Shown here: positions 1 to 28,248 of the stretch, piece by piece
Position numbering within the stretch: the stretch's first letter is position 1
How the letters are laid out: each line of letters opens with the position of its first letter
The notes under the pieces: model-generated
Told to the model about the DNA's origin: nothing
Seen by the model: only the letters and a program-made list of their open reading frames with translations
Databases searched by the model: none
Made by a program: the position numbers and the translations under genes
Source: a virus
Strand: one strand, 5' to 3'
IMG/VR virus record: IMGVR_UViG_3300003322_000941
Coordinates: 1-34,467 of that record
Length of the DNA stretch: 34,467 bases

Positions 1-185
1 CTGGCCCCGATGAGGCTGGCCCCGTTGAGGCTGGCCCCGTCGAGGCTGGCCCCCGCCTTTAATGCGATCCTGACCGCCAAACCCAGCTTCAACGAATAAC
101 TGGCGCTTTCGTCGCATTCGATGGACGCGTTGAAAATCACCTCACCCGAAAATCTATTTTTTATAGCAAAGTCCACAATACTCAC
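1..185 (-). CDS. Pentapeptide-repeat protein, 5' part (runs off the window edge)
   Basis: The minus-strand frame starts at GTG (185-183), just after an AAGGA Shine-Dalgarno; a second GTG three codons later is an alternative. About 40 ordinary residues lead into GASLDGASLNGASLIGA, the A(D/N/S)LxG pattern of pentapeptide repeats, which fold as a right-handed quadrilateral beta helix. The DNA shows matching 15-base units at 1-15, 16-30 and 31-45. The frame is still open at base 1. If the molecule is circular it continues in frame at 34467 and stops at 34365, giving a protein of about 95 residues. Function is unknown: the fold serves as a scaffold or DNA mimic in several settings. It lies downstream of the 204-392 gene on the same strand. 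Confidence 0.75.
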   Translation of the reverse strand, partial: MSIVDFAIKNRFSGEVIFNASIECDESASYSLKLGLAVRIALKAGASLDGASLNGASLIGA

Positions 186-10324: not shown

Positions 10325-10333
10325 AGACGAACC

Positions 10334-10353: not shown

Positions 10354-10355
10354 TC

Positions 10356-10508
10356 ATGAAAGAAACGACCATGGATGAATACACTCCTGTTTGGATGGAG
10401 AAGAACAAAACGCGCAAGCAGGCCCTTACCGCCGAGGTAAAAGCGCTCCTCGAAAGTCAGGGCTGGAAGGAAAGCAAGCCAGCGAAGCCAGAAAAGGAAA
10501 GCAAGTAG
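10356..10508 (+). CDS. Small hypothetical head-region protein (50 aa)
   Basis: Not recognised. It lies between coat and the gp4-like gene, three bases before the latter, and is probably co-translated. The sequence is very charged (MDEYTPVWMEKNKTRKQALTAEVKALLESQGW, then a Lys/Glu/Pro tail): one helix with a flexible basic end. ATG 10371 is an alternative start, and neither has a good Shine-Dalgarno. A minor virion or assembly role is suggested only by position. Confidence 0.5.
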   Translation: MKETTMDEYTPVWMEKNKTRKQALTAEVKALLESQGWKESKPAKPEKESK

Positions 10509-10511
10509 GCG

Positions 10512-12622: not shown

Positions 12623-13025
12623 TCCTCCTCCGATCCAGCAGGGACTCAACGGTGGAGGGCATATCCATAGGATATGGGCCGAGTGGTTGACCCAGTTCTT
12701 TCGTTACGTGGGAGACCTTCCCACCAGCGGGGGCGGAAGCTCGACCCTGACCATTACCTCGGTCAGCGCCGTGTATGCGATGGCCGATACCGACCGGGTT
12801 CTGTTGTGCAATACCGGCGCCGGGGGATTTACGGTCACCTTGCCGACAGCGGCGGCAGGGAACGGGCTTATCTATTACGTCAAAAAGAGGTCGTCGGACG
12901 CTAATATCGTCACTATCCAAGGCAGCGGAGGAGAGTTGATCGATGGTGCGGCTTCTGCGACAATCTTCGGTGCGTATGAGGCAATCAGACTGATAAGCGA
13001 TGGGACGACATGGTTAAGCTTGTAG
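12612..13025 (+). CDS. Tail or virion appendage protein with beta-helix-cap-like domain (137 aa)
   Basis: ATG 12612 lies within the last codons of the gp10-like gene. Residues 1-35 (PPPIQQGLNGGGHIHRIWAEWLTQFFRYVGD) look like a virion-attachment segment. Residues about 47-137 have the domain common in phage fibres: SVSAVYAMADTDRVLLCN, FTVTLPTAAAGNGLIYYVKK, IVTIQGSGGELIDGA, YEAIRLISDGTTWLSL. This is a trimerising or carbohydrate-associated beta domain, and probably a short fibre or adaptor bound to the tail hub. The 3' end overlaps the next gene by 16 bases. Confidence 0.65.
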   Translation: MPLSPPPIQQGLNGGGHIHRIWAEWLTQFFRYVGDLPTSGGGSSTLTITSVSAVYAMADTDRVLLCNTGAGGFTVTLPTAAAGNGLIYYVKKRSSDANIVTIQGSGGELIDGAASATIFGAYEAIRLISDGTTWLSL

Positions 13026-14062
13026 CCCTTGCATTGGCACTCCTGTGCGGGACGGCACAGGCGCAACAGGTCATCGGGCAGGGCCGCTTTATCAATGTTT
13101 CGGCGACAAACAACGTCCAGGCGGCACGGTTCTATGGCGATGGCGCCAACCTCACCAATGTGCCTTTTAGCCCAAGCCCTCCTCAAGGTGGTGTCCAGTT
13201 CAACAGCGGCGGGATTATTTCAGCCACATCAGGACTTACCTACGTTACTGCCACCAACACGCTACTAGTGTCCGGTGGGGTCTCGACGTCAAGCCTGGTC
13301 GGAACGGGCACGATCTCAGGGAGCGCTCCGGCGACAAGCGGGAGCTTGGTGTGGCAGGCCAATACGGGTCTTCTCAAGACATCCTCGAACCTGAAATGGG
13401 ATTTCGTGGCGCTCAACGTGCCCGGAAACATCAGTACCACGGGCGGCATCTCGGCGACGGGTAATATTAAGACAGGCGGGAAGTTCCAGGGCGACGGCAG
13501 CGAACTGACCAACCTCCCGAGCAGCAGTGGCGCATGGACGCTGTTGGCGGCCAAGGTCATCACCAGCGGTGTGTCCGAGGTGTCGTTCACGAGCATCGCC
13601 AGCGGCTATGATGTCTACGCATTCCGTATCATCGAGGCACAGCCTAACTCCGCCAATGCCTTATCTTTGCAAATGAGCACGGACAACGGCGGCTCGTGGA
13701 CCGACTATACCTACGTCAGGGCCAACCGTCGGCAGGTGCCGGGTGGGACCAGTACCGATTACGTGTCCTCCGGCTGGGAGGCAGCCTACGCCCTCGCGGG
13801 CGCGTCGGTGGCGACGGGAGCGCCGGGCGTTAGCGGCCAGGTCGAGATCACCGGCCTTACGTCGGTGGGGCGCCGATACAAGGAGATCACGCACCACGTC
13901 TCCTACATGTGCAACGGCACGAGCCTGCCCTGCATGGAGGTGGGAGGCGGCATGGCGGATATTGGTGGCGCTGTGAATGCCGTGCGGATTTACTTTCTAG
14001 GAGGTGGAAATACGGTGGTGTCGGCGACCGTCGCCATGTATGGGATTGACACGACACCATAG
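13010..14062 (+). CDS. Fibre-like protein with N-terminal signal peptide (350 aa)
   Basis: Residues 1-19 (MVKLVALALALLCGTAQAQ) are a good Sec signal peptide, unusual inside a tail module. Two copies of the motif (R/K)F(Y/Q)GDG(A/S)xLTN(V/L) occur at about residues 38-50 and 158-170, typical of repeat units in fibre and surface proteins. The C-terminal half (from WTLLAAKVITSG, with FTSIASGYDVYAFRIIEAQP and LSLQMSTDNGGSWTDYTYV) resembles receptor-binding fibre tips. Either it is a fibre in which the hydrophobic N-terminus is a structural anchor, or an exported protein that decorates the lysogen. I favour exported; confidence is modest. Confidence 0.6.
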   Translation: MVKLVALALALLCGTAQAQQVIGQGRFINVSATNNVQAARFYGDGANLTNVPFSPSPPQGGVQFNSGGIISATSGLTYVTATNTLLVSGGVSTSSLVGTGTISGSAPATSGSLVWQANTGLLKTSSNLKWDFVALNVPGNISTTGGISATGNIKTGGKFQGDGSELTNLPSSSGAWTLLAAKVITSGVSEVSFTSIASGYDVYAFRIIEAQPNSANALSLQMSTDNGGSWTDYTYVRANRRQVPGGTSTDYVSSGWEAAYALAGASVATGAPGVSGQVEITGLTSVGRRYKEITHHVSYMCNGTSLPCMEVGGGMADIGGAVNAVRIYFLGGGNTVVSATVAMYGIDTTP

Positions 14063-14141
14063 TGTTCAACATATTTGTTCAGCCCGCTTCACGGCTAAAA
14101 ACTGATGGAAGGCGAAAGCCGCTAACCAGTTAGGAGCAAGA
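14063..14141 (+). promoter_or_regulatory. Structured leader before the ejection-protein genes
   Basis: This is the only sizeable gap in the structural block. It can fold as AACTG...CAGTT closing around GGC-GAAA-GCC (a GAAA tetraloop stem), or alternatively with CGGCT pairing to AGCCG, and AGCC to GGCT. The AGGAGC ribosome-binding site lies right after the CAGTT arm. A translational control element is plausible. It matches no riboswitch class I can name. Confidence 0.35.
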
Positions 14142-14768
14142 ATGGGCTTATTTTCTAAGTTATTCGGCAGCGGCAACAAGAGTGCCTACGACACCAGCGG
14201 TGTTTCCTCGGCGGTTAACCAGTCCAACCAGCTTTTAAAGGATATGTACGACAAGGCCGTGGCCTCGGGCCAGCCTTGGCTCGACCTTGGAAAGAACGCC
14301 GCGGGAGAACTCGGCGACCGCCTCTCCGCGCTAACAACGCCGTTCGATTTCAACACATACACGTCCGACCCGAGCTATCAGTTCTTGCAGGACGAAGCGC
14401 AAAAAACGATTGAGCGCTCGGCAGCCGCAAAGGGTAACGTCTACGCCCCTTCGACCCTAAAAGCGCTCCAGGACCGCAGCCAATCGTTAGCGTCGTCCGA
14501 GTACGGCAACGCCTTCAACCGCGACCTAGCCTCCAAATCCAGTATCTACGACATGCTTATGGGCATCTCGAACACGGGCCAAACTCAGGCCAACCAGAAC
14601 GCCCTCTACGGCCTTGATTACGCGGATGCAGTCAGCGGCAATAACATCGGTTTACAGAACGCGATATTAGGGTCTTATCAGGCCAAGAACGCCAACGGCC
14701 AGTCCGCGCTCGGAAACTGGATAAATCTTGGCGGCAGAGCGCTGAGTGGCTGGTTGGGGAGAGGCTGA
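14142..14768 (+). CDS. Ejection / DNA-transfer protein (208 aa)
   Basis: The pattern fits a common podovirus DNA-transfer protein: SGQPWLDLGKNAAGELGDRLSAL, FDFNTYTSDPSYQFLQDEAQKTIERSAAAKG, STLKALQDRSQSLASSEYGNAFNRDLASKS, then Gln/Asn/Ala-rich helices. In P22-like phages small internal proteins of this kind (gp7, gp20, gp16 group) leave the head with the DNA and build a channel across the envelope. ATG 14142 has AGGAGC in front. It overlaps the next gene by TGATG and is the first of three consecutive ejection-type genes. Confidence 0.75.
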   Translation: MGLFSKLFGSGNKSAYDTSGVSSAVNQSNQLLKDMYDKAVASGQPWLDLGKNAAGELGDRLSALTTPFDFNTYTSDPSYQFLQDEAQKTIERSAAAKGNVYAPSTLKALQDRSQSLASSEYGNAFNRDLASKSSIYDMLMGISNTGQTQANQNALYGLDYADAVSGNNIGLQNAILGSYQAKNANGQSALGNWINLGGRALSGWLGRG

Positions 14769-15919
14769 TGGCTAACGGCGCTATTTTTAATACTCCGAAT
14801 ATCTTCCTCCAGGGGTCGCAGCTTTACCAGAACGCCAACAGCCGCATCTTCGATGCGATCACGCAGGCGGCCGACATCTACGAAAAGATGCAGATGACGC
14901 GGGACGCCAACCTGAACGCCCTTCGCATGAAGCAGGCTGAGTTGAACGCGGACCCCGAGAGGGCGTCGCTGCCGATCCTGGCCAAGGCAAGGCAGTTTGG
15001 CGTCGCCTCGCTGTCGCCTGAGGAAAAGGCGATGTTCGATGCATCGCAGCAAATTTTGGCATCGAAAGTGGCGATCCAACCGGCGACCGGACAAGCCTAT
15101 AGTCCCTATACGGCCATCAGTCTTGACAATAAGGCTCCTCCTAGTGCCGCTGCGGAGATGTTCACCAACGCCGGTATTCTTCCGCCGCCCAGGGAGGCCG
15201 CCCCTGCCCCGCTGGGCGAACCGAAGCTAAAGTCTGAGTTTGAGGGGTCTAGTGTCGATGATACGGGCATCGGCAACACACCCGTGGGCCGCATGGAGAA
15301 GTTCAAGTCGAACCTTGAGACCGACAGGCAGATCAAGGTCGAGGATGCCAAGCAGAAGTTCGACCAACGCAAGGCGGAATTCTATAAGCCGAAGCTCCAG
15401 GCCGTCCTGGAGAAGATGTCCGACATCAACGAGCAACTCCAAAAGTCCAGCGCGCTCAAGTCGGAGGATAAGAGCGGGTTGAGCAATGCGTTGAACACGT
15501 TGGCGGGCACCGACATTCCGATACCTTTCTCGGGCAAGAGCATTCCGGTGGGGCGCGCGACGGAGGAGGTGGCCCGCAAGAAGGTCGCAAGCCTCAGGGA
15601 TCAATACGACTCGCTCAAGTCTAACGCCATGAGCCTGCTCAAGAACGCCGCCAACATCGCGGCGGGCTCGATGAACTCCGACGCCGAGCAAAGGCTTGCC
15701 CTCAGCTCTTTCGGCGACCCCAATGGCAATTATGAGGCCAATAAGAAGGCCCTCGAAGCCACGATGGAATCTTACGGCACCCGGGCGGCACGGGCGGCGG
15801 CGGAAAAGGGGGCGCCGAAGGATGAGGCGAAGTGGCCAGAAGCGAAAATCCAAAAGGCGCTGAAAGCGGGCTACTCGATGGACGAAATCAAAGCCTACAT
15901 GAATGGCCGCCGCAAATAG
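14768..15919 (+). CDS. Second ejection / internal virion protein (383 aa)
   Basis: It occupies the position of P22 gp20. Largely helical with a hydrophilic Pro/Glu linker (about residues 120-175), long charged coiled-coil segments (RQIKVEDAKQKFDQRKAEFYKPKLQAVLEKM, split here by no break) and an Ala-rich part (LLKNAANIAAGSM). It has no enzyme motif. The C-terminus AKIQKALKAGYSMDEIKAYMNGRRK resembles the short helical repeats seen in such proteins. Start ATG overlaps the previous TGA, and its last codons overlap the start of the third gene by 17 bases, indicating balanced co-translation. Confidence 0.6.
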   Translation: MANGAIFNTPNIFLQGSQLYQNANSRIFDAITQAADIYEKMQMTRDANLNALRMKQAELNADPERASLPILAKARQFGVASLSPEEKAMFDASQQILASKVAIQPATGQAYSPYTAISLDNKAPPSAAAEMFTNAGILPPPREAAPAPLGEPKLKSEFEGSSVDDTGIGNTPVGRMEKFKSNLETDRQIKVEDAKQKFDQRKAEFYKPKLQAVLEKMSDINEQLQKSSALKSEDKSGLSNALNTLAGTDIPIPFSGKSIPVGRATEEVARKKVASLRDQYDSLKSNAMSLLKNAANIAAGSMNSDAEQRLALSSFGDPNGNYEANKKALEATMESYGTRAARAAAEKGAPKDEAKWPEAKIQKALKAGYSMDEIKAYMNGRRK

Positions 15920-18059
15920 CCGCCCCTCGCTGGACGAGATATTCGGCCAAGATCGGCAGTCACTTGATGCCATCTTCGCCGATGAGGCCGCCGCATCGGA
16001 ACCGCCTCCACCTAACCCCCTAGGTGATCAAGGAATCCCGGCAGACGTGATCCGCCACGCCGCCATGGGCAGGATCGACCGTAAGGCCGCCGAGGACTAC
16101 CTCAAGAGCGTGGGACTCGACCCTTCGGTTATCGACAGATTCGGCAAGAACGCCTCGGCGTCGGACGTGCTGATGGGCTTGGCGCAAAAGCCTGGCCAGG
16201 GCCTTACCGCGGGATTCGGCGATGAAATCACGTCCCGTCTGGTCGCACCCATCGCCATGGCGACCGGGCTCACCTACGAGGAAGCCCAGCAGGCTATCGA
16301 GGACAGGATGCGGCGCCAGGCCGATGCTGCCTCGGCGCGGCATCCGATCCTGTCCGCAGGGCTGGAAATAGCCGGGAGTGTGGCGGGCGCAAAGAAGCTA
16401 ACTAGTGCCTTCCCGAACATAACAAAAAGGGTCACCGATTTTGCAACAAAAGGGGTCGTCCCCTCCCTCGTCACAAGTGGTGCCACTGGTGCGATTTCGG
16501 GGGGTATATATGGACTCGGCAACGGCGAGGGAGATGTGCAAGCGCGCCTCAAGAACGCTGGCGATATGGGACTACTTGGGGGGCTTTTTGGCCTTGGCGG
16601 CGCTGCTGCTTCTCGGCCGGTTGCCAATCTGACGGAAAGGGCCTTGAAGTTCGTCAGGAAGGCAAGGCCCGAGAAGATCGCGCAAATGCCGGGCGGCATC
16701 ACCCGGTCTCCCCTGGCCGTCGATGCCGCCACCACACAAGGGTCCGTCATCCCCCTGACAAAAGGCCAGGCGACCCAAAACCCACAACTGCAATCGCTGG
16801 AGAACATGGCCCGCTCGGGCGCCCTCGATGACACCTCGCAAGCGTCGATGTTGGCCGCCGACTACAAGCAGCAGGACGCGATCAAAAACGGCATAGAAAG
16901 AGTGGCCGGAGGAGAGGCGAGTGAGAATTCACTGACGAAGGCCGGAGAAATTCTCAGGAAGGGGTACAAGGACATTAAGGGCCATGTTTCCAAGGCTTAT
17001 GACGATGCCGCGGCGATCCGTGGCGTGTTCGTGGACAAGAAACCGATGGCCGAGAGCTTCGCGCCGAAGATTAATGACATCATGTACAAGCAAGGTTTCG
17101 ATGCCAGCAACCTGACGCCCGAGAGCAAGAAGATATTGGGCCAGATCGGCACCTTGAAAGACCCCAAAGTGTCGGCCGTCAACCTGGAGAAGATGGAGTT
17201 CTGGCGCCGAAAGGTGAACAATCGCGCCGAGCAGATGAAGGGCGACCCCGAGGGCGTACTGATGGGCCGCGTCGTGAAGGCTTACGACGACTTCATGGCC
17301 AAGTTGCCCGAGGGGGCGCTCAAAGCGGGCGACGAATCGGCCCTGCAACAAATCCTCGATGCCCGGAGCCTGCGGAAACGCCAAGGCGTGCTGTTCGAGC
17401 GCAACAAGGTGGTGAGCGATATCGTTAAGGGAAGCGACCTCACCAACGAGGAACTCGCCAACCTGGTACTGACCGGGAGCGGTCGCGGCCAGAGCATTCA
17501 TGCGGGCTCCGGCAAGGCAGTTAGGGCGATGAAACGGGCGGCGGGAGACAATGCGGGCGACCTGGTGGACAACCTTCGAAAGGGCACCTTCGCGCGCATC
17601 CTATACCGCTCCACTGTGAACACCCAGCGGGCGGGCACGGACATACAGATGATCTCGCCCTCGAAGCTGCTCAAGGAGCTTGACGGCCTGTCGGGCAACC
17701 GGTCGTTCATGGAAGAGGTTTTCGACGAGCAGGGCCGCAACACCATCATGGCGATGAGGAACGACCTGCGTAAGGTTGTGAGCGAGCAACCGGGGACGAA
17801 GAACTACTCCAATTCGGCCTACACCATCATGAACTATCTGCGCCGCCTACCTCTTGGATTGAGCGGTCTCTCCGGACTTGCGGAGATCGGTTTGAAGCCG
17901 GTCGCGCAGAAAGCCGCACGGGACGAGCTGGAAAAGTCTTTGCAAGACGTGATCGGCCAGGTCCAAAGCGAACTCATGGGTAAGGCCAAGCTTTATGGGG
18001 CCGCCGCCGCCGGAGGCCAAGGCGGCAAGCAGGCCGTAGAAATAAACGGGAGGGAATGA
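15903..18059 (+). CDS. Large ejection / internal virion protein, P22 gp16-like position (718 aa)
   Basis: The largest of the three ejection-type proteins. The N-terminus has a short helical repeat (SLDEIFGQDRQSLDAIFADE). Residues about 100-240 carry Gly/Ala-rich hydrophobic stretches (GLTAGFGDEITSRLVAPIAMATG, GAISGGIYGLGNGEGD, MGLLGGLFGLGGAAASR) that could insert into the membrane. The rest is helical and charged, ending in another Gly/Ala-rich segment (LGLSGLSGLAEIGLK). No peptidoglycan hydrolase motif was seen. Role by position: transfer of DNA through the host envelope. Confidence 0.65.
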   Translation: MAAANSRPSLDEIFGQDRQSLDAIFADEAAASEPPPPNPLGDQGIPADVIRHAAMGRIDRKAAEDYLKSVGLDPSVIDRFGKNASASDVLMGLAQKPGQGLTAGFGDEITSRLVAPIAMATGLTYEEAQQAIEDRMRRQADAASARHPILSAGLEIAGSVAGAKKLTSAFPNITKRVTDFATKGVVPSLVTSGATGAISGGIYGLGNGEGDVQARLKNAGDMGLLGGLFGLGGAAASRPVANLTERALKFVRKARPEKIAQMPGGITRSPLAVDAATTQGSVIPLTKGQATQNPQLQSLENMARSGALDDTSQASMLAADYKQQDAIKNGIERVAGGEASENSLTKAGEILRKGYKDIKGHVSKAYDDAAAIRGVFVDKKPMAESFAPKINDIMYKQGFDASNLTPESKKILGQIGTLKDPKVSAVNLEKMEFWRRKVNNRAEQMKGDPEGVLMGRVVKAYDDFMAKLPEGALKAGDESALQQILDARSLRKRQGVLFERNKVVSDIVKGSDLTNEELANLVLTGSGRGQSIHAGSGKAVRAMKRAAGDNAGDLVDNLRKGTFARILYRSTVNTQRAGTDIQMISPSKLLKELDGLSGNRSFMEEVFDEQGRNTIMAMRNDLRKVVSEQPGTKNYSNSAYTIMNYLRRLPLGLSGLSGLAEIGLKPVAQKAARDELEKSLQDVIGQVQSELMGKAKLYGAAAAGGQGGKQAVEINGRE

Positions 18060-19173: not shown

Positions 19174-19200
19174 CACCAATTGACAGAGAGAGGAGTGCCC

Positions 19201-19593
19201 ATGATGATGGAACAAACCAACGAAAGTAAAACCATGCGGCGACTTCTTGCGCTCGGTTTCATGGGTGGCCTGGCTGCCGCGTCGGCCCACGCCGCGGTGG
19301 TACAAACCTCCAGCGACTACACACGGAGCGCCACCACTACCAGTTCCAGCTTGCAGTTCTTCAAGCTCCGGCAAGATAAGCCTACGGTGGTCGAGGTGAG
19401 TGGCACGGGCTCGGGCACCTTGAAGGTCGGTACCGCCATCGATGACAGCCCAACGACCTCCAACGGGTTTGTGCCGGACCCGGATGGCACTGTGACAAGC
19501 AATACCGGGTGGGTACTGCCGAGCGGGCTGCTCATGCTTATCTTTGAGCCGACCTCGGGTACGTGGGTCGTAAGGGTAGCGCAACCGAAATGA
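19201..19593 (+). CDS. Small exported protein with signal peptide (130 aa)
   Basis: ATG 19201 is 4 bases after GAGAGGAG. After a polar lead (MMMEQTNESKT) comes MRRLLALGFMGGLAAASAHA, a Sec signal peptide; ATG 19234 would give the signal directly. The mature part is a Thr/Ser-rich beta sandwich-like sequence (FFKLRQDKPTVVEVSGTGSG, SNTGWVLPSGLLMLIFEP, GTWVVRVAQPK). No family recognised. Located between fibre and lysis genes; the stop overlaps the next ATG (ATGA). Confidence 0.6.
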   Translation: MMMEQTNESKTMRRLLALGFMGGLAAASAHAAVVQTSSDYTRSATTTSSSLQFFKLRQDKPTVVEVSGTGSGTLKVGTAIDDSPTTSNGFVPDPDGTVTSNTGWVLPSGLLMLIFEPTSGTWVVRVAQPK

Positions 19594-20204
19594 GGAACAT
19601 CCTTACCCTCACAGTTGCCCTGGCCCTGCTGATCGGCTCGGCGTCCGCGCAAAGCAAGGGCAACATGTTCTCGCGTCTTGGCGATGGAACTGGCCTAATC
19701 TCCACCAACGGGCTGACCGTGGCGGGGTCGGTGACGGCAACCATGGACATCAGCAGTGGCCGTACGCTCGGTTATAACTACGGTCAGTTGACCAATAACG
19801 GCAACGACGCGGTGTTTAAGATACTGAACAGTAACGCCGCCTTCTCGGTAGTTGGCAGCGACTTCGTGCAAATCCTCAAGGCTGACCGTGGCAACCAGGG
19901 CATCATGGTGGGTTTAGCCACGGTGGGACTGAACCCATCGGCAAGCCTGCATGTGAGTGGAACCTCGATCCTCAACAGCAAAACCACCATCGGCGCCAAC
20001 GTCGCACCGACATCGACGCTTGATGTGTATGGAACCGTCTCGGCGACGAACCTTTACCTGGTTCCGCAGGCCACCACCCCGACCACCAACGGGACGATTA
20101 GGCTGGCGATGACGACGAGCGGAACACTTTGCTACCTCAGCAACACCACGTGGGTGGAGGTTGGCCAGAAAACCACGGCATGCAGCTATTCGCCTTCCAG
20201 GTAA
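19590..20204 (+). CDS. Fibre-like exported protein with signal peptide (204 aa)
   Basis: ATG 19590 overlaps the previous stop. Residues 1-21 (MRNILTLTVALALLIGSASAQ) form a signal peptide with an ASA cleavage site. The body has features of fibre-shaft and intramolecular-chaperone regions: ISSGRTLGYNYGQLTN, NPSASLHVSGTSILNSKTTIG, PTSTLDVYGTVSATNLYL, and a closing TNGTIRLAMTTSGTLCYLSNTTWVEVG. It may be a surface-exposed, phage-derived appendage or a fibre with an anchor. It shares the signal-peptide oddity with the 3799, 13010 and 19201 genes. Confidence 0.6.
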   Translation: MRNILTLTVALALLIGSASAQSKGNMFSRLGDGTGLISTNGLTVAGSVTATMDISSGRTLGYNYGQLTNNGNDAVFKILNSNAAFSVVGSDFVQILKADRGNQGIMVGLATVGLNPSASLHVSGTSILNSKTTIGANVAPTSTLDVYGTVSATNLYLVPQATTPTTNGTIRLAMTTSGTLCYLSNTTWVEVGQKTTACSYSPSR

Positions 20205-20208
20205 AGCA

Positions 20209-20466
20209 ATGGAAGGCAACGGCTCTGCACGCCTGGCCCGTCTTGAGAAGAACCAAGACGAAATGATCCGTTACCAATCAGACCACGGTGAGAAGCTGAC
20301 ACGCATCCTTACAATCATGGAGCAGAACTCCGACTTGCCGGATAGGGTTTCCGCGCTCGAAGCACTACGTAACAGGATTTACGGCTACCTCTTTGGAGCT
20401 TCCGTGGCCGGAGCCGGCGGAGGACTTGGTCTGGCCAAGTGGTTCGGCGTTGGCGGGTTCCATTGA
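20209..20466 (+). CDS. XhlA-like membrane-anchored lysis protein (85 aa)
   Basis: ATG 20209, four bases after the previous stop. Residues 1-55 form a charged coiled coil (ARLARLEKNQDEMIRYQSDHGEKLTRILTIMEQ, split by no break), and residues about 60-78 (GYLFGASVAGAGGGLGLAK) form one membrane helix near the C-terminus. This is the shape of haemolysin XhlA / small phage holin-associated proteins. Its place before DUF5675 and holin-like genes supports a lysis role. It overlaps the next gene by TTGA. Confidence 0.6.
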   Translation: MEGNGSARLARLEKNQDEMIRYQSDHGEKLTRILTIMEQNSDLPDRVSALEALRNRIYGYLFGASVAGAGGGLGLAKWFGVGGFH

Positions 20467-20852
20467 TCGCGCTTCAACGCCTTTGCGAAATCAACGGCGC
20501 CACGCTTGGGCGCCTGTTGGTCGAGGACGTTCCCCCCTTATGGACCCTGGAGCGGCCATGGCTGGGTAACCAAACGAGGGTCAGTTGCGTGCCTACGGGT
20601 TGTTACACATGCATACCTCACGGCTGGAGGGGGGGAGCCAGGTTCCGAAGCGTATGGGAACTTGAAGACGTGCCTGATCGTTCTGGCATACTGTTTCATG
20701 CGGGCAACACAGTGGCCGACACCGAGGGCTGCATCCTCGTGGGGCGGGGTTTGATCGCGGTGGAGGGAGTGAGGCTGATCCAAAGCCGTGACGCCATCGA
20801 ACTGATGCGCAAGGCCATCGGCGAGAACGCCTTCGACCTAACAATCAGTTGA
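20463..20852 (+). CDS. DUF5675 family lysis-region protein (129 aa)
   Basis: The start that fits is TTG 20463, overlapping the previous TGA. The family pattern is strong: GATLGRLLVEDVPPLWTLERPWLGN, SCVPTGCYTCIPHG, LEDVPDRSGILFHAGNTVADTEGCILVG. The His (FHAGN) and Cys (EGCI) in the last part are arranged like the catalytic His/Cys of L,D-transpeptidase-type domains, so a peptidoglycan-active enzyme is possible; this is inference. It sits where an endolysin is expected, and no other lysozyme or amidase was found in the window. Confidence 0.75.
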   Translation: MIALQRLCEINGATLGRLLVEDVPPLWTLERPWLGNQTRVSCVPTGCYTCIPHGWRGGARFRSVWELEDVPDRSGILFHAGNTVADTEGCILVGRGLIAVEGVRLIQSRDAIELMRKAIGENAFDLTIS

Positions 20853-20901: not shown

Positions 20902-21102
20902 GTGAATCCTATGGAACTCATTGCTAAGGCGAACGGCATGAAAACCTATACTGCGGCGATAGTCACCATTTTAGTCGCCATCGGCGGGGTTTTAGAGGGT
21001 ACCATTCCGTTAGAGCAGGCCGTTCACTTAAGTGTGGACGCCATTCTCTTCATGACGCTCCGCCACGCCGTCGGCCAACAAAGTAGCAAACAAAGCAAAT
21101 AG
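20902..21102 (+). CDS. Holin-like small membrane protein (66 aa)
   Basis: GTG 20902 follows AAAGGG. Two hydrophobic helices are seen: residues about 15-31 (TYTAAIVTILVAIGGVL) and about 40-55 (AVHLSVDAILFMTLRHA), with a Lys/Ser/Gln-rich tail (GQQSSKQSK). Size, two-helix layout and position after the DUF5675 gene fit a small phage holin that permeabilises the inner membrane. Its stop is two bases before the proposed ATC start of the next gene. Confidence 0.6.
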   Translation: MNPMELIAKANGMKTYTAAIVTILVAIGGVLEGTIPLEQAVHLSVDAILFMTLRHAVGQQSSKQSK

Positions 21103-21103
21103 C

Positions 21104-21562
21104 ATCACCACTATCGCCTACCGAAATGGCGTGCTTGCGTCGGACAGTCTTTCGTCCGCCAATGGCAAGTATTCCGGCCACGTCGTCAAGGTTGAGCGCA
21201 TCAACGGTTGGCTTATCGGTGTCTCAGGCATGTGCGGCGTCGCCAGGGAGTTCTTCGCCTGGTTCGAGGAGAACTGCAAGGACGAGAAACTAAGACGCCC
21301 TCCCTCGACCCTTCTGGTTGACGACGACAAGAACCCCATCAGCGTGTTGCTGGTGAGCAACAAGACCGGGGCCGTCTATATGATCGACGGTTTGGGTTAC
21401 CCCTTTCGGGTTCACGGTAAGTTCTTCGCCATCGGGAGCGGCGAAAGCCATGCGATGGGAGCCATGGCGGCAGGGGCGGACGCTATCAAGGCGGTGCGGA
21501 TTGCCATCACGTTCGATTGCTACACAGGAGGCCCTGTGAGGGTACTCAAAAGGGCCTCATAG
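21104..21562 (+). CDS. HslV/proteasome-like Ntn hydrolase with apparent ATC start (152 aa)
   Basis: From GTG 21131 onward the frame looks like phage proteasome-beta/HslV-like proteins: GVLASDSL, VVKVERINGWLIGVSG, FFAIGSGESHAMGAMAAGADAIKAV and ITFDCYTGGPV. These enzymes need an N-terminal Thr freed by Met removal. The conserved TTIAYRNG lies just upstream, in frame, preceded by ATC (21104) exactly where Met should be. With that start, T1, D13 and K28 match the HslV T1/D17/K33 set. The in-frame open stretch back to the stop at 21053 has no ATG, GTG, TTG or CTG. Starting at 21131 would remove the catalytic Thr. Likely role: a protease of unknown target. Confidence 0.7.
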   Translation: MTTIAYRNGVLASDSLSSANGKYSGHVVKVERINGWLIGVSGMCGVAREFFAWFEENCKDEKLRRPPSTLLVDDDKNPISVLLVSNKTGAVYMIDGLGYPFRVHGKFFAIGSGESHAMGAMAAGADAIKAVRIAITFDCYTGGPVRVLKRAS

Positions 21563-21604: not shown

Positions 21605-21640
21605 CAACAAAATGCCCCCGTAAAGGGGGCTTCGGTTTAT
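21605..21640. terminator. Bidirectional rho-independent terminator
   Basis: GCCCCC (21614-21619), loop GTAAA, GGGGGC (21625-21630). Read rightward it is followed by TTCGGTTTA; read leftward by ATTTTGTTG, the better U-tract. It separates the late phage operon from the convergent ardC gene and marks the left edge of the mobilisation module. Confidence 0.85.
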
Positions 21641-22585
21641 TCAGGTGACTTCTTCCTGCAACTCCTCGGCGTGAGACGCCTTTCGGGCTTCCTCGTCGGG
21701 GTCGTCGATACCTTGCACCACGTGTTCCCTCTCGCGCAACCAGTCGGCCGCGCGTGACGCCTGGGAAGCGACCCGGAAGATGGCGCGATTATCCTCACGC
21801 AGCACCGTAAGCCAATGGCCGAGATACTCCGCGCTTTCGCGCTCGTGCTGGTAGCCTAGGTGCGCACAGAGGAAGGCGGCGCCCAACTCGGCGACAAGCT
21901 CCTCCATGGCGTATTCATGATCGCCGAACTTCCGGCCGAGCCGCCGGTCAAGGCGGTCGGGGTGCGCGGTGGCATGGACAAGCTCATGGGTGAGCGTGGC
22001 GCAGAAGGCATCGTCGGAGGTGAACGAGCCGTAGGGCGGGATGTGGATTTCGTCCCGGTGGGGGTAGTAGCAGGCGCGGTTGCCGCCATACTTCACCGGC
22101 ACGCCGGAGGTGTCCGCCAGGCGTTTGAGGGCATCCATGCGCTCCTCGTCTGGCAATCCCTCCTCCTTGCAGGAGAAGATGACCGGAAGGTTCTCCAGTT
22201 GCGCCAGGTTGAACACCGAGTAGGCCTTGAGTAAGGGAATCATCCGGGCGGGTTTTGCCTCGTCGCCCTCGGCCTCGACCGGCTTGAACTTGGTGTAGAT
22301 CACCGTGGCGGCCTTCTCGCCCTTGCGGACGTTGGCCCCGAGGGTGGTAGCCTGGCGGTAGGTCATCCAGCCGTGCGTGGGATAACCCCTCTCCAGGGCC
22401 GTATCCCACAGCAGGAGTATGTTCATTCCCGAGTAGTGATAGCCCGTGGCGGCATTGGTGGGGACCATTGCGACCCCCTGCGCCCCATTGACCTTCCATG
22501 GCCTCTCCCAGGGCTTCACGCCCTGTTCGAGTTGGGCGCAGATGCGCTTGGTGACGGATTCGTAGAGCCCGGCGGTTTTCGCCAT
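21641..22585 (-). CDS. ardC: ArdC family anti-restriction protein (314 aa)
   Basis: The N-terminal domain (about residues 5-130: YESVTKRICAQLEQGVKPWERPW, GYHYSGMNILLLW, GWMTYRQATTLGANVRKGEKAATVIYTK) is the ArdC ssDNA-binding domain. The C-terminal domain is a zinc metallopeptidase-like fold with HELVH at 200-204 and an EELVAELGAAFLC helix (about 228-240) supplying the third ligand. ArdC proteins bind ssDNA and shield incoming DNA from restriction during conjugation; they occur in plasmids, ICEs and phages. ATG 22585 follows GGAGG. It is transcribed divergently from the coupling-protein gene. Confidence 0.9.
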   Translation of the reverse strand: MAKTAGLYESVTKRICAQLEQGVKPWERPWKVNGAQGVAMVPTNAATGYHYSGMNILLLWDTALERGYPTHGWMTYRQATTLGANVRKGEKAATVIYTKFKPVEAEGDEAKPARMIPLLKAYSVFNLAQLENLPVIFSCKEEGLPDEERMDALKRLADTSGVPVKYGGNRACYYPHRDEIHIPPYGSFTSDDAFCATLTHELVHATAHPDRLDRRLGRKFGDHEYAMEELVAELGAAFLCAHLGYQHERESAEYLGHWLTVLREDNRAIFRVASQASRAADWLREREHVVQGIDDPDEEARKASHAEELQEEVT

Positions 22586-22683
22586 GGCAGCCTCCGTGTG
22601 TGGGGATCGGCCTGTATCGGCCGGGAAACGTCAGGGTTAGACTCTTATTTGTTTCTTTGGTGGACAAGGACAAAGGTACGCCG
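22586..22683. promoter_or_regulatory. Divergent ardC / coupling-protein control region
   Basis: ATCGGCC is directly repeated (22606-22612 and 22616-22622), and CGGCC/GGCCG in the same stretch also form an inverted repeat. A regulator binding site is plausible. No confident -35/-10 pair was found on either strand. Confidence 0.4.
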
Positions 22684-24165
22684 ATGTCGAAGCTCTTGAA
22701 AGTCCTGGCCGCGCCCATCTGGTTGGGCGTGTTTATCGTGGAGGCTGTTTGTCAGGCGTTATGGCCGCTCCTTAAAGGGTCGTGGAAGTTCATGAGGAGG
22801 CAAAAGAAGGCGTCGGTGCATGGCAATGCCGGTTGGGCCGACGACAAGACGCTCAAAGCCCGGGGGCACTTCACCCCCGGCGGCATCGCCGTGGGGGCGA
22901 CCCGCAAGGGGCGGCGCATCTACGCCCACCCGGAGAGCAGCGTGCTCATGATTGCCCCGAAGGGTCAGGGCAAAACGCAGTCCTTCGTGGCGATACTCAA
23001 GGCCCTCAAAGATTATGCGAAGCGCCCCGACCTGCTCATCCACGACCCAGCCGGGGATGTGTACCGGGCGACCTCGGCCGATCTGGCGGCGATGGGTTAT
23101 CACGTGGCCATCGTGGACGTGTTCGACCCGGAGGCGGGCGGGAGGTACGACCCTTTCTCGTTCCCCAATCCGGACGATGTATATGACTTCGACCGCGACG
23201 TGAGGGCGATGTGCGAGTTGATGGTGCCCGATGATGCCGACAGCAGGCAGCCGCACTTCGCCGAGTTCAGCCGTATTTTGTTCCGCGAGGTGGTCAGCGC
23301 GGCCATGCGGGACGGCAACACGCGCACCATCGCCGATTGCGTGACGGACCTGACCGACGACGCGCGGCGAGACAAGCTGATCGCCCGCCTGAAGCTTCTT
23401 GGCAAGCCGGAGGCGATGAGCGCGATCACGACCTTTGCCAAGATGGCGGGCAAGCCCGAGGGCAATAGCATGCTTTCGACCTCGCTGCGGAAACTGGAGG
23501 TATGGCGGCTTGAGGCGGTGAAGGCGGTGTCGAGCTTCGGCCCCACGTCGAACCCGCTCCGCCCGCGCGGCTGGAATTGGGATGATGTGTTCAACTATCC
23601 CAAGCCGGTGGCCATGTTCGTGCGCACGGGCCTGGGCTCCGGCGGGGGCGACTTCGTGCGGGTGACGTGCGGCAACGCGATCAACACCGCGCGGCGGCAT
23701 TGGAACCGGACGGGGAAACCCCTGCGCAAAGGGTTATGGCTGATCGTGGATGAAGCCCGCGCCATGGGTAACTGCAACGCGGTCATGGATGCCAATAACG
23801 AACTGAGGAAAGCCGGGGTCAACGTGCTGCTGTGTTTCCTGAGCCTGGCCGATGTCCATAAAACCTATCCCGACGCTGATACGCTGGTCGCCGGGTGTGA
23901 GCTTGTCGTGTTCGGGGGCTCCAAGGATGCCGACTATTACAATGAGATCAGTAAACTCATGGGCACCAGGACGGAGCATAGCCACGGCGAGAGCACCCAT
24001 GAGGGCCGGAAGGGCGAAAGCAGGCATGAAATAGGGGTGCCCCTGCTGCGCCCGGACGAACTGAGGCGCCTGCCCCTCGACGAAGCGGTGGTGTTGATGA
24101 ACGACCTCAACGTCCGCTGCCATAAGCTGTTCAAGCGGGGCAAGGATTGGATACGCTACCTATAG
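22684..24165 (+). CDS. VirD4/TraG-family type IV coupling protein (493 aa)
   Basis: The N-terminus has a membrane segment (about residues 8-30). GWADDKTLKARGHFTPGGIAVG is the typical TraG/VirD4 opening. Walker A is APKGQGKT (91-98) and Walker B is LWLIVDEARAMG (D356/E357). FDPEAGGRYDPFSF, then a late HxxL-type end (LRRLPLDEAVVLMNDLNVRCHKLF), complete the family pattern. It is an ATPase that brings relaxase-DNA complexes to a type IV secretion channel. No VirB/Trb channel genes are in the window, so it would need a channel from elsewhere. Its 3' end overlaps the convergent relaxase gene by 6 bases. Confidence 0.88.
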   Translation: MSKLLKVLAAPIWLGVFIVEAVCQALWPLLKGSWKFMRRQKKASVHGNAGWADDKTLKARGHFTPGGIAVGATRKGRRIYAHPESSVLMIAPKGQGKTQSFVAILKALKDYAKRPDLLIHDPAGDVYRATSADLAAMGYHVAIVDVFDPEAGGRYDPFSFPNPDDVYDFDRDVRAMCELMVPDDADSRQPHFAEFSRILFREVVSAAMRDGNTRTIADCVTDLTDDARRDKLIARLKLLGKPEAMSAITTFAKMAGKPEGNSMLSTSLRKLEVWRLEAVKAVSSFGPTSNPLRPRGWNWDDVFNYPKPVAMFVRTGLGSGGGDFVRVTCGNAINTARRHWNRTGKPLRKGLWLIVDEARAMGNCNAVMDANNELRKAGVNVLLCFLSLADVHKTYPDADTLVAGCELVVFGGSKDADYYNEISKLMGTRTEHSHGESTHEGRKGESRHEIGVPLLRPDELRRLPLDEAVVLMNDLNVRCHKLFKRGKDWIRYL

Positions 24166-25554
24166 TCCCTGCTCCTGCGCTTGTTCCTGCTCCCATTCCT
24201 CTTCTTGCCGGTGCCGCTGCTCGATGGCGTTGACCATGGCATCATCGCCCAACAATTCACAGGCGCGCACGGCCTCCTCGTAGGTGAGGTTGCCGACCTC
24301 GTAGTCGGCATAGACCTGCGGGCTGGTGACTCCCTGCAACTCTTCCTGCACGGTATTGGCCAAGACGGCTTCGGCGGCTTCGATGGTGGCGTGGTTGCCG
24401 TAGGTGCGCTCAAGCTCCATGGCCGCCCTATGCTCAAGCTGGACACTATGGGAAAGCGCCTGGAGCGATTCCTGCTGCCGCACCTCGGCGGCATGCCTGG
24501 CCTCGGCCGAAAGGCGTTTAAAGTTGTCTCGGGTGGCCTCGGCATCGCCATGGATGCGGGACACCTCCTCGCCCTGGCGCCGCATCGGGGACTTCCATTC
24601 GAGGCCGAATAGTTTGACGTGGAACCCGCGCAGGCGCCCGTCCGGCTTGGTGTATTGACCAAGCCATTGCTCGGCGCGGAAGCGCGTCTTCTCGGCTTGC
24701 ATGGCGTGGGTATCCAGGCTGTTGCCGTAAGCGGCGAGTTCGGTCGCCTGGCGCTGGGCGCTCTCCGCCCGCGCCTTGAGGTAGGCGATGCTTTCCCTGG
24801 TCTCCGCCAGGTGGCAGCGATGGGCGTCGTGGCCCAAGGCGTTCTGCACGCGCTCGTAAGACAGGAGTTCCGGGCCGTCGCGCTTGATGGTGGCCATGGC
24901 GAGGTCTTCCTCGGTGGGGTGCTCGGGTTCGTCCATGGCTGACTGCAAGTCGGGGGCATCCTGGGCAAGGGGCAACTCGGGGCGTTGCGGCTCAATCTGC
25001 TCTAGCTGCTCTAGCTGCTCCTGCCGTTGGGTCTCCAGGGTGCGGCGGTCGATGCGCACATCGTAGCCGTACTCCTCCAGCTTGCCGTTGCACACACGCT
25101 CCCACAGCGCCCGCATGCGCTCGGTGCTGCCCCTCTCGCTCATCTGCTGGACGCGCTTGCCGGTTTCCACGTCCTTATCAAAGAACATCACATGGACGTG
25201 GGGGTTGTGGGTCTGTCCGCCGTGGAGGCAGGCGAAGGCTCTTGCGCGGCCACCGTCCGTCAACTGCCACAAGAAGGAGCGGATGGTGGCCGCCTGCTCT
25301 TCGCCGGTCATCTGGCACGGCAAGGCGATGTGGAAGGTGTCGCACACCCGACCGTTTTTGCGGCTCGTTGTCTCGTTGTCGTTGGCGGCCCTTTGCAGGG
25401 CGTTGGGCTCTGCGGCCAAGCCCACCGTGTAGATGTCTTCGCACGCGCTGCGGCGCGTCATGTACCGCACCTTGGCGGCGGCCGTGCCGGGCGCACTACT
25501 CGTCTTACCGACATGTCGGTGGTTGAAGTGATAGTGGCCCCGCTGAAAGTCCAC
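24160..25554 (-). CDS. MobA/MobL-family (MOBQ) relaxase (about 464 aa)
   Basis: Using GTG 25554, the N-terminus (GHYHFNHRHVGKTSS...AAAKVRYMTRRS) lines up with RSF1010 MobA, putting the likely nicking tyrosine at about residue 31. HIALPCQMTGEEQ (about 75-87) and the metal-binding triad in HNPHVH (H116, H119, H121) follow. The rest is a long charged helical region with a Gln/Glu-rich linker, lacking a recognisable primase or helicase. The frame is open to ATG 25611, but that codon lies in the oriT. It should nick oriT and stay bound to the 5' end. It lies beside its own oriT and convergent to the coupling protein. Confidence 0.85.
   Translation of the reverse strand: MDFQRGHYHFNHRHVGKTSSAPGTAAAKVRYMTRRSACEDIYTVGLAAEPNALQRAANDNETTSRKNGRVCDTFHIALPCQMTGEEQAATIRSFLWQLTDGGRARAFACLHGGQTHNPHVHVMFFDKDVETGKRVQQMSERGSTERMRALWERVCNGKLEEYGYDVRIDRRTLETQRQEQLEQLEQIEPQRPELPLAQDAPDLQSAMDEPEHPTEEDLAMATIKRDGPELLSYERVQNALGHDAHRCHLAETRESIAYLKARAESAQRQATELAAYGNSLDTHAMQAEKTRFRAEQWLGQYTKPDGRLRGFHVKLFGLEWKSPMRRQGEEVSRIHGDAEATRDNFKRLSAEARHAAEVRQQESLQALSHSVQLEHRAAMELERTYGNHATIEAAEAVLANTVQEELQGVTSPQVYADYEVGNLTYEEAVRACELLGDDAMVNAIEQRHRQEEEWEQEQAQEQGL
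25507..25520. promoter_or_regulatory. 14-bp perfect palindrome in the relaxase 5' region
   Basis: ACCGACATGTCGGT is its own reverse complement. It lies inside the first codons of the relaxase gene and about 60 bases from the oriT, so it could be an operator or an accessory-protein site. Confidence 0.45.
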
Positions 25555-25568
25555 GGTAACACTGTACC

Positions 25569-25632
25569 CTGTCTGTGGGGCGCTTCCTCTTCGGGTTCGG
25601 CACGAACCCATAAGTGCACCCTATACAGACAG
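25569..25632. other. oriT: Origin of transfer (oriT), MOBQ type
   Basis: GGGTTCG (25593-25599) and CGAACCC (25603-25609) form a perfect inverted repeat, followed at once by ATAAGTGCACCCTA (25610-25623). MOBQ plasmids such as RSF1010 have the same order: an inverted repeat directly 5' of a nic region TAAGTGCGCCCT. The match here is one base off. Outer arms CTGTCTGT (25569-25576) and ACAGACAG (25625-25632) pair perfectly and enclose the whole site. The adjacent MOBQ relaxase supports the call. The exact nick bond is not assigned. Confidence 0.82.
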
Positions 25633-25636
25633 TGGC

Positions 25637-25667
25637 GTAGCTCAGACCCCGAAACCCGCGCAGCTAC
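25637..25667. repeat. Inverted repeat right of oriT
   Basis: GTAGCT (25637-25642) and AGCTAC (25662-25667) are separated by 19 bases. It is probably part of the extended oriT or a binding site for an accessory or regulator protein. The GGCGTAGCTCAG stretch recalls a tRNA D-arm, but no cloverleaf forms. Confidence 0.45.
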
Positions 25668-25761
25668 ACCCGGTGGCAGGAAGGGGCGGATTGACTCTTT
25701 GGCGCATGTGTTTTATGTGCAACACTCGGCCTGGAGATTAAGCGCGCGAATAAGCAATAAA

Positions 25762-25812
25762 GCGGGAACCTACCCGCCCGAATAGAACGGGCACCGCGTC
25801 GGTTATCCGACG
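25762..25812 (+). other. Three consecutive hairpins between oriT and the next gene
   Basis: GCGGG-N6-CCCGC (25762-25777), GCCCG-N7-CGGGC (25776-25792) and CGTCGG-TTAT-CCGACG (25797-25812, followed by ATTTTC). The first two share two bases. The cluster could be a single-strand initiation site, extended oriT structure, or a leader or attenuator for the 25884 gene. The rest of the gene-free stretch 25668-25883 shows nothing else clear. Confidence 0.5.
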
Positions 25813-25883
25813 ATTTTCAAAACAGCCTGTCTGCCCTTGGCGGCCTTTGCATTACCGATACCATTGATAGGAAAGGTGTGCCC

Positions 25884-26519
25884 ATGCCCATCTTTGGGAA
25901 ATGGAATACCCGGAATCTGCCTGCCGTCCCGGCGCCCGCCCCCGCGCCGGTTTACATCACCCACCCGCCTCTTCCCGCGCCGAAGCCCGCCCTGAACCTT
26001 GAGGGCAACAACCCCATCACGATGGCCATCGCCACCAACATGGCCCGCACCGAGCCGGGGGAGATTTACCGATTCTCGGTGGGAGTGACCGAGAGCGGGG
26101 TTTCCATTGCCAGCGGCATCGAAAAGCCCTGGGCGCCCCCGACGCCTCAACCTTCTCACTTGAACGAGGCGGCCGTCACGTCGCTGCGAGAGGCGCTTCA
26201 TGCGCACATCAAGTTGAACGAGAGGCTTTACGGCATGGTGCGGGATATGCGGGAGAAAGACGCGGAGCGCCGGTCTGGGGAACGGATGGAGTCGGACCTG
26301 GCGGCCGAGTTGCGCAAGCTGAGGACCGGCGCCGAGCCGAAAGGCGCGTCCTTCAACATCGCGGACATGATGAGCACGCTGGAATTCGTGCGCGCCATGC
26401 CCGCCCCCAACCGCTACAGCGACACCCAGCGGGCGGCGGTCTACCGCAACAGCGCCGGGCGTGAGGTCGTGTTCATCATCCGCCCGGATGGGCAGCCCGA
26501 GCCGGTGGACATGCCATGA
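25884..26519 (+). CDS. Hypothetical protein of the mobilisation module (211 aa)
   Basis: Not recognised. ATG 25884 has AAAGG with 7-base spacing; GTG 25878 is too close to it. The N-terminus is Pro/Ala-rich (residues about 12-40), followed by a strand-rich part (RFSVGVTESGVSIASG), a charged coiled-coil (LREALHAHIKLNERLYGMVRDMREKDAERRS, split by no break) and a C-terminal strand pair (REVVFIIRPDGQPEP). It could be a transfer accessory or partner protein, judged only by place next to oriT. It overlaps the next gene by ATGA. Confidence 0.55.
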   Translation: MPIFGKWNTRNLPAVPAPAPAPVYITHPPLPAPKPALNLEGNNPITMAIATNMARTEPGEIYRFSVGVTESGVSIASGIEKPWAPPTPQPSHLNEAAVTSLREALHAHIKLNERLYGMVRDMREKDAERRSGERMESDLAAELRKLRTGAEPKGASFNIADMMSTLEFVRAMPAPNRYSDTQRAAVYRNSAGREVVFIIRPDGQPEPVDMP

Positions 26520-26806
26520 CCCACCTGTTGGGCGCCGCCTTCTGCCTGTGGATCGCGGATTATTTCTCCGCCGTTTGGTTCGGTTACCCCTTCGTCTACT
26601 GCCTCGGCGCGGCGTTTATGGCGCCCCTGTTCGCCCCCTGGTTCCACCTGGCCCTGATGGGCTGCGCGCTCTACCTGTTGTTTGTCCTGGTCACCGGCCT
26701 GGGCTTCGGCCTGGCTCTCCGGGTGGCCGTGCTGATGATCCTGCTGGGCGGCCTCCCTGAGCTTGCCCGGACGCTGCTGTCGTTCGGCCACGCGTGCGGC
26801 CCCTGA
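26516..26806 (+). CDS. Polytopic small membrane protein (96 aa)
   Basis: Not recognised. ATG 26516 overlaps the previous stop (ATGA), so the two genes are probably coupled. Nearly the whole protein is hydrophobic: segments LLGAAFCLWIADYFSAVWF, VYCLGAAFMAPLFAPW, LALMGCALYLLFVLVTGLGF and LALRVAVLMILLGGL suggest three to four transmembrane helices. It may anchor or partner the preceding coiled-coil protein, or serve entry exclusion; neither is shown. Confidence 0.6.
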   Translation: MTHLLGAAFCLWIADYFSAVWFGYPFVYCLGAAFMAPLFAPWFHLALMGCALYLLFVLVTGLGFGLALRVAVLMILLGGLPELARTLLSFGHACGP

Positions 26807-26865
26807 GTCAACCTGGCGCAGGGGGCTTGGCGATGGTTCATGATATGTTCACGGGAGGCAGCGCC

Positions 26866-27111
26866 GTGGAAAGGCAGCAGATGCGCGAGGCGATAGCAAA
26901 GCAACTCGGTATCCAGCTCGCGGCTATGTACACGATCCCCAGCGTGGCGAGCATCCTCGGGGTCGATGAGAGCACGGTGAAGCGCTGGAAGCGCGACGGC
27001 AAGACGGAATACGTCCAGCTCGGCCGTGGCGTGCGGTTCTTTGGCTGGCAGATTTGTGACCTGCTGATCAACGGCATCCGGCGCGAACAGGCCGCCAAGG
27101 TCGAGGCGTAA
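26866..27111 (+). CDS. Excisionase-like / MerR-type HTH DNA-binding protein (81 aa)
   Basis: GTG 26866 sits 7 bases after GGGAGG and is preferred over ATG 26833. Residues about 20-60 (MYTIPSVASILGVDESTVKRWKRDGKTEYVQLGRGVRFFGWQICD, continuous) are the HTH_17/excisionase pattern: a helix-turn-helix followed by a beta wing. Placed immediately upstream of the integrase (the next GTG follows its TAA directly), it is probably the recombination directionality factor, possibly also a regulator. Confidence 0.75.
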   Translation: MERQQMREAIAKQLGIQLAAMYTIPSVASILGVDESTVKRWKRDGKTEYVQLGRGVRFFGWQICDLLINGIRREQAAKVEA

Positions 27112-28248
27112 GTGAGCAAATATCAGAAGCGCGACTTCAGGATCGGGGAATGGTACCTCGGCAAGCGGGGCGAGAGCCCCGCCTTTTATCGCTGCCGATA
27201 TGCCAACGGACGGACGGAGCGGGTGAGCCTGGGCGTGACCGACTTCGACGCCGCCAAGCGCATCCTGACCGAATGGTATTACCAGCACATCCGGCTTGAG
27301 GCCGACCGCGCCGCGCCGGAGCGGGTGGCCCTGTCGGCGGTGCTGGACGACTATTGGCACGGCGAGGCGTGCAAGCGCATCTCGGCGCCCTCGATCAAGA
27401 TTTTGCTGCGCTACTGGCGCGAGTTTTGGGTGGGCGCCTCGGTGGCCGACGTGCGCGACGTGGGGCGCCAGGAGGAATTTCAGCGGCACCTGGCGGCCAA
27501 GGGCTTGGCGCCGCAGTCGGTCAACCTTTGCCTCGACAAGGGCAGGGCCGCGATACGCCGCGCGTGGAAGCGTGGCGTGATTTCGTCTCCTGTGGCGGTG
27601 ATGTCAGTCAACGTGGGCAAAAACCCTCCCAAGGGCCGCCCGTTGAGCCTGGAGGAGTTGAAGCGCTTCGTGGCCGGGAGCGACACGGTGCATTGGCGCG
27701 ACCTGGCGCTCGGGCTGATCGGGACGGGCGCACGCCCTAACGCGATCCTGACGCTCACCCGCCAGCAGATCGACTTCGAGCAGGGGCTTTTGAGCCTCAA
27801 CCCAGAGGGCCGGGAGCAGACCAACAAATACCGCCCGACGGTGCGGCTGCCTGCGCTGCTGGCGGAGCGGTGGAAGGACAGGCCCGAAGGTCGCATCGTG
27901 TTGTGGCGCGGCATGCCGGTGGACCGGGGCCAGAACGTGATGCGCATGGCGCGGAAACGCGCTAAGCTGGACAAGTCGGTTAATCTGTACAGTTTCCGCC
28001 ACACCTGCGCGCGGTGGATGCGTGCCCAGGGCGTGGATGCCTGGCAGTTGGCCGCCCAGTTGGGCCACCGCCGCGAGGGCTACGACATCACAGAGCTTTA
28101 CGCCGCCTACGACCCGGCCTACCTCAAAGACGCCTGCGCGGCGCTGAGCCTGCTCCTGGAGAAGGCCGCGCCAGATACGCGCCAGGCCGAAGACGAAGAC
28201 GTTGACATTGCTACGCTTGTCCCTGACCCGGCGTTGTGCACGAGGTAA
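27112..28248 (+). CDS. int: Tyrosine recombinase / integrase (378 aa)
   Basis: GTG 27112 directly follows the HTH gene's stop. The N-terminus (about residues 1-60) is an arm-binding-like region, about 70-160 is the SAM-like core-binding domain, and about 175-345 is the catalytic domain. Catalytic residues seen are R208 (GTGARPNAIL), R296 (YSFRHTCARW, with Tyr where the box-II His is usual), H319 (LGHRR) and probably Y330 (ITELYAAYDP). It should integrate and excise the element at an att site. No tRNA gene or clear attP core was identified near it. Confidence 0.88.
   Translation: MSKYQKRDFRIGEWYLGKRGESPAFYRCRYANGRTERVSLGVTDFDAAKRILTEWYYQHIRLEADRAAPERVALSAVLDDYWHGEACKRISAPSIKILLRYWREFWVGASVADVRDVGRQEEFQRHLAAKGLAPQSVNLCLDKGRAAIRRAWKRGVISSPVAVMSVNVGKNPPKGRPLSLEELKRFVAGSDTVHWRDLALGLIGTGARPNAILTLTRQQIDFEQGLLSLNPEGREQTNKYRPTVRLPALLAERWKDRPEGRIVLWRGMPVDRGQNVMRMARKRAKLDKSVNLYSFRHTCARWMRAQGVDAWQLAAQLGHRREGYDITELYAAYDPAYLKDACAALSLLLEKAAPDTRQAEDEDVDIATLVPDPALCTR

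Follow-up and report, generated by a model that had tools for sequence, protein, structure and literature searches.

How does a phage translate a protease gene that appears to have no conventional start codon? The window, by which we mean the whole stretch of DNA analysed, is a virus record of 34,467 bases (IMGVR_UViG_3300003322_000941) with terminase, portal, scaffold, coat, head-closure, DNA-ejection and tail-collar genes and an integrase; the phage is temperate and probably short-tailed. An earlier note had placed in it an HslV-like hydrolase with ATC as its only sensible start, and had offered three explanations: a rare near-cognate start that keeps expression low, a +1 frameshift from the preceding holin-like gene, or loss of the start by mutation. 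We asked what the frame encodes, what stands at its start in related genes and which of these explanations fits best.

The open frame and its surroundings

The frame is open from 21056 to 21562, between an in-frame TGA (21053-21055) and the TAG that closes it (21560-21562). There are 16 open codons after the TGA (CGC, TCC, GCC, ACG, CCG, TCG, GCC, AAC, AAA, GTA, GCA, AAC, AAA, GCA, AAT and AGC), and from 21104 the frame continues as ATC (21104-21106), ACC (21107), ACT, ATC, GCC, TAC, CGA, AAT, GGC and GTG (21131). We read every codon and found no ATG, GTG, TTG or CTG in frame between the stop at 21053 and the codon for the catalytic threonine; the first in-frame GTG is indeed the one at 21131, past the nucleophile, and the stop of the holin-like gene does end at 21102 with the protease in its +1 frame, all as the earlier note had described. 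An upstream NTG start in frame was rejected by this codon-by-codon reading up to the stop. Just one further near-cognate codon occurs upstream, the ACG at 21065, on which the earlier note was silent.

Judging from its sequence, the protease frame is a real gene. It matches PHROG 1040 ('peptidase HslV family', E 7e-35) and the Pfam Proteasome family (E 2e-7, above the cutoff of that family), its codon-usage log-odds are 0.39 in its own frame and -0.54 and -0.51 in the two alternatives, and both its codon usage and its GC3 (0.75) are like those of the structural genes of the phage. Because the codon usage and the active-site residues are intact, the gene is not an old pseudogene.

After the tail fibre the order is two ORFs with signal-peptide-like N-termini, the gene at 20209-20466, the DUF5675 gene, the 66-aa gene, the protease frame and a hairpin (Table 1). 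A family search with the 85-aa protein gave no match, and the 66-aa protein had no family match either, nor did phage records or three related records contain a homologue of it; only its size, hydropathy and position make the latter holin-like. The lysis-cassette setting proposed earlier is plausible, given the DUF5675 gene and two small membrane proteins upstream and the fact that some close relatives lie directly after endolysin or holin genes. Going by the terminator-like hairpin, the late operon would end with the protease gene.

Table 1. Coordinates of features around the hydrolase gene in the window
Feature	Position	Strand	Remarks
Two ORFs with signal-peptide-like N-termini	19180-20204		Between tail fibre and lysis region
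85-aa protein	20209..20466	+	Apparent coiled coil and C-terminal membrane segment (by eye only)
DUF5675 protein, putative lysis region	20439..20852	+	Pfam PF18925, E 2e-25
66-aa small membrane protein	20902..21102	+	GTG start, or ATG at 20911; hydropathy maximum 1.99
TAG stop of the 66-aa gene, candidate termination-reinitiation site	21100..21102	+	1 nt before the ATC
PPH-type proteasome-like hydrolase gene	21104..21562	+	152 codons counted from ATC; 151 residues past the initiator position
ATC at the start-codon position	21104..21106	+	NTG here in 78/80 relatives; no in-frame NTG upstream
ACC, codon of the predicted catalytic Thr1	21107..21109	+	Invariant or nearly so in alignments A1-A3; superposes on HslV Thr1
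Terminator-like hairpin GCCCCCGTAAAGGGGGC	21614..21630	+	~50 nt past the protease stop; consensus match only

Further downstream in the window (21641-28248) lie genes for ArdC antirestriction, for a T4SS coupling protein of the TraG/TrwB type, for a MobA/MobL relaxase and for the integrase. The same order and strands are found in a sister record, G001 (IMGVR_UViG_3300037471_000898, 9161-16452), at identities of 47% for ArdC, 34% for the coupling protein, 31% for the relaxase (with one TAG inside the match) and 45% for the integrase. On these sequence matches, the set appears to be a DNA-mobilisation module that a phage lineage has conserved.

A phage proteasome homologue rather than HslV

An AlphaFold2 model of the hydrolase, built from 50 sequences (mean pLDDT 94), aligned with E. 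coli HslV (4g4e) at Z 19.4 and an rmsd of 2.0, with residues 2..152 of the model on 1..173 of the chain; its structure matches were HslV and proteasome beta chains throughout, and its top match in BFVD was a Caulobacter phage 'proteasome subunit beta'. The threonine at residue 2 of the model superposes on the Thr1 of HslV as well as that of the proteasome. With the first residue of E. coli HslV thus matched by residue 2 of the model, the ATC takes the place of a removable initiator Met, and the mature protein is expected to begin at the threonine encoded at 21107. Also kept are Asp14 and Lys29 (model numbering, corresponding to proteasome Asp17 and Lys33), a GSG motif and Asp138. According to DSSP, the model has one helix (44-57) and then mostly loop up to a strand at 80-85; the second helix, H2, is absent.

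A 2021 survey of proteasome homologues defined the PPH type as proteins of ~140 residues, found in tailed phages and their hosts, in which the second helix is absent and there is no propeptide (PMC8665760). Here we found a proteasome-like beta fold with equivalents of Thr1, Asp17 and Lys33, a length that fits (151 residues past the initiator position), no propeptide and no H2. On this match to the published description, we assign the hydrolase to the small phage proteasome homologues of the PPH type. The earlier designation 'HslV-like' thus holds in that this is an N-terminal-threonine hydrolase with the HslV fold, but does not extend to a true HslV: we rejected that identity as there was no match to the NCBIfam HslV family, the length and the first hairpin differ, and no HslU is present among the annotated genes of the window.

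Start codons and upstream stops among relatives

In an alignment-based scan we found 80 viral loci with 29-43% identity over the best segment; these include near-duplicates and the counts are therefore of contigs, not of independent lineages. The codon aligned to the ATC was ATG in 58, GTG in 15, TTG in 5, ATA in one (L097) and GGA in one (L079). The comparison of homologous loci for ATG at 21104, suggested in the earlier note, thus returned ATG in 58/80 and NTG in 78/80, and it is this column of NTG codons that sets the ATC exactly at the Met position, as had been claimed. One scan of genome contigs added seven relatives in bacterial genomes, all with NTG (7/7). In the GGA locus (L079, 2824-3474) an in-frame start lies upstream and the protein is longer; its N-terminal extension ends in Gly directly before the catalytic Thr, a junction that resembles that of a processed proteasome beta propeptide, although propeptides are reported to be absent from PPH (PMC8665760).

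These alignments also bear on the possibility that translation begins at some other codon that is in frame, either the ACG at 21065 upstream or, downstream, the ATC at 21113 or the GTG at 21131. We consider this very improbable: the ACG would add 14 residues before Thr1, the two downstream codons would delete the nucleophile, and the starts of the relatives align to position 21104.

A pattern scan for any Ile codon at the start position found two loci only, L097 (ATA) and L201 (ATT), neither of which has an NTG start in frame. The corresponding NTG pattern scan found at least 120 loci, so that two AUH against at least 120 NTG is an upper bound on the frequency of AUH. Nine relatives of L097 (39-83%) have NTG in 9/9, and L097 itself (2978-3004) has ~23 extra bases after an ATG that matches the start of its relatives, making an 8-codon ORF whose stop overlaps the ATA (ATAA). 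As a clean second example of a non-NTG start, L097 is weakened by the ATG in most of its close relatives and by the extra sequence after the matching ATG; its ATA may reflect an insertion or indel instead of a true AUA start. In L201 (minus strand, 7730-7755) the ATT has an in-frame TGA just upstream, which makes an NTG start impossible; GGGGTG occurs shortly before it, and the homologue overlaps the end of an upstream ORF. It is conceivable, though in our judgement unlikely, that phage proteasome homologues repeatedly swap NTG for AUH (AUC here, AUA in L097, AUU in L201) on or beside an upstream frame, keeping a potentially harmful protease low, dependent on coupling and sensitive to IF3 until late infection.

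At ~47% identity, the nearest relative is too distant to bear on conservation of the ATC. No close relative of the hydrolase was found in a single-protein scan of viral contigs or in a portal-based search, and it had no match in the related phages to which the head-closure protein had led (L013-L019), so that they offer no orthologous locus with ATG for comparison. The sister record G001 likewise has no match to the hydrolase gene and carries another gene in its place, and for this reason the gene looks dispensable in the lineage.

These observations give weight to the view that an ancestor had an ordinary NTG start and that this was lost in a recent point mutation, or that the metagenomic contig contains an assembly or sequencing error. 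ATC and ATG are one base apart, a single G-to-C change in an ordinary ATG would give an identical picture, NTG is found in 78/80 relatives and ATC in no close relative. Against this, the frame is open, and its coding signature and active site are intact. Moreover, undisrupted matches to their families span nearly the whole of the portal, coat and head-closure genes, and the consensus quality of the contig looks good on that account. A recent start loss or base error is a serious contender, which we rate as possible but would not bet on, and it fits almost as well as coupled initiation at the AUC.

The relatives also share a feature of the sequence just before the start. In the window the TAG of the 66-aa gene lies at a spacing of +1 nt from the ATC, within the ~10 nt between stop and start that we used as the criterion for termination-reinitiation, and an upstream stop is within 10 nt of the start in 51/61 relatives, mostly as a 4-base NTGA overlap. 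The NTGA overlap is partly automatic, because Met-Thr is always encoded NTGAC, which contains TGA; spacings of +1 and -1 are not automatic. Two relatives (L025 and L034) have the same stop-C-start spacing as the window, with TGA C ATG in place of TAG C ATC. The genes on the upstream side differ. In L021 and L022 the stop of a holin gene (PHROG 3427, E 2e-19) overlaps the GTG start of the hydrolase, with a phage lysozyme gene (E 3e-46) before the holin in L022, and in L029 an M15 peptidase and small membrane proteins are encoded upstream; in still other relatives a long ORF precedes the hydrolase, as the terminase does in Sinorhizobium phage phiM5. A position after endolysin and small membrane protein genes was observed in L021, L022, L027 and L029, and the lysis-cassette neighbourhood does recur among relatives of the hydrolase. 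Such a position, right behind genes for holins and endolysins, is recurrent among phage proteasome homologues.

Coupled initiation and its precedents

No Shine-Dalgarno sequence was found in the 20 bases upstream of the ATC (anti-Shine-Dalgarno pairing -0.1 kcal/mol); the coat gene of the same phage is likewise without one (0.1). A structured start region was also rejected, no RNA structure being detected at the start (z 0.28) in what is an A-rich region. The absent Shine-Dalgarno sequence and the family-wide abutment of stop and start are the best clues to mechanism, and both were missing from the earlier note.

Of the three explanations offered there, we favor near-cognate initiation in a coupled form, and hold it somewhat more probable than all others together that reinitiation occurs at the AUC with fMet, at low output tied to the upstream 66-aa gene. 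Reinitiation needs an overlap or very short spacing (PMC10666635). In this working model, ribosomes finishing the 66-aa protein at the UAG (21100-21102) would stop one base from the AUC and the same ribosomes would reinitiate on it (21104) with fMet-tRNA; deformylase and methionine aminopeptidase would then strip the Met, exposing Thr1 as in HslV. Output would depend on upstream translation and be sensitive to IF3, and it is expected to be low because there is no Shine-Dalgarno sequence and the codon is near-cognate. The low-level hydrolase expression envisaged in the earlier note would follow, and initiation at the AUC without a Shine-Dalgarno sequence (-0.1 kcal/mol) may even be negligible. 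Our guess from the position of the gene is that the protein acts in late morphogenesis or in the timing of lysis.

The remaining explanation is that +1 ribosomal frameshifting at AAA-UAG-C produces a fusion of the 66-aa membrane protein and the hydrolase. The frame of the hydrolase is +1, a C follows the UAG, and tRNA-Lys could conceivably slip from AAA to AAU. The site is not of the RF2 type, however, in that its codon is AAA and it has neither an SD-like stimulator upstream (-0.1 kcal/mol) nor a stable structure; in substitution tests of the RF2 type, CUU-U was by far the best +1 site (PMC5009743). Furthermore, propeptides are reported for proteasome beta and HslV and not for other homologues (PMC8665760), and it is because a fusion would bury Thr1 that we regard frameshifting as highly unlikely. 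The residue before Thr would also be Ile, not Gly. In processed proteasome subunits, Gly precedes Thr.

Returning to coupled initiation at the AUC, there is precedent for starts of this kind. In E. coli infC begins with ATT and in Streptomyces with ATC, sigR was expressed ~4-fold more strongly once its GTC start was replaced by ATG, and IF3 restrains non-NTG starts (PMC5472188). The hydrolase is a known kind of protein, and its start codon is rare but precedented (infC of Streptomyces). If AUC initiation is real, the locus exemplifies, in a phage, the use of a near-cognate start via termination-reinitiation. It also matters for annotation: gene callers limited to ATG, GTG and TTG would begin this gene at 21131 and drop the catalytic threonine, and such enzymes would therefore be annotated truncated or missed.

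Compared with known systems, the hydrolase is like HslV (ClpQ) in its fold (Z 19.4 to the E. coli protein) and in having an N-terminal Thr after the initiator Met, but it is shorter, has a shorter first hairpin (Asp 13 from Thr1 versus 17), is without H2 and has no HslU gene seen nearby. It resembles the PPH proteins and PHROG 1040 in its length (~150 aa), its Thr1/Asp/Lys set, its tailed-phage genome and the absence of both propeptide and H2; it differs from them in having ATC rather than NTG at the start position and in its placement after a region of DUF5675 and small membrane protein genes. Like infC and Streptomyces sigR (GTC), it would use an AUC or other non-NTG start restrained by IF3; for those genes, which are cellular and regulatory, the proof is experimental, whereas the evidence here is from sequence alone. 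Finally, as in termination-reinitiation pairs (ATGA/TAATG), the downstream start is a few bases from the upstream stop, and unlike in those pairs, the reinitiation codon would be a near-cognate AUC that works without a Shine-Dalgarno sequence.
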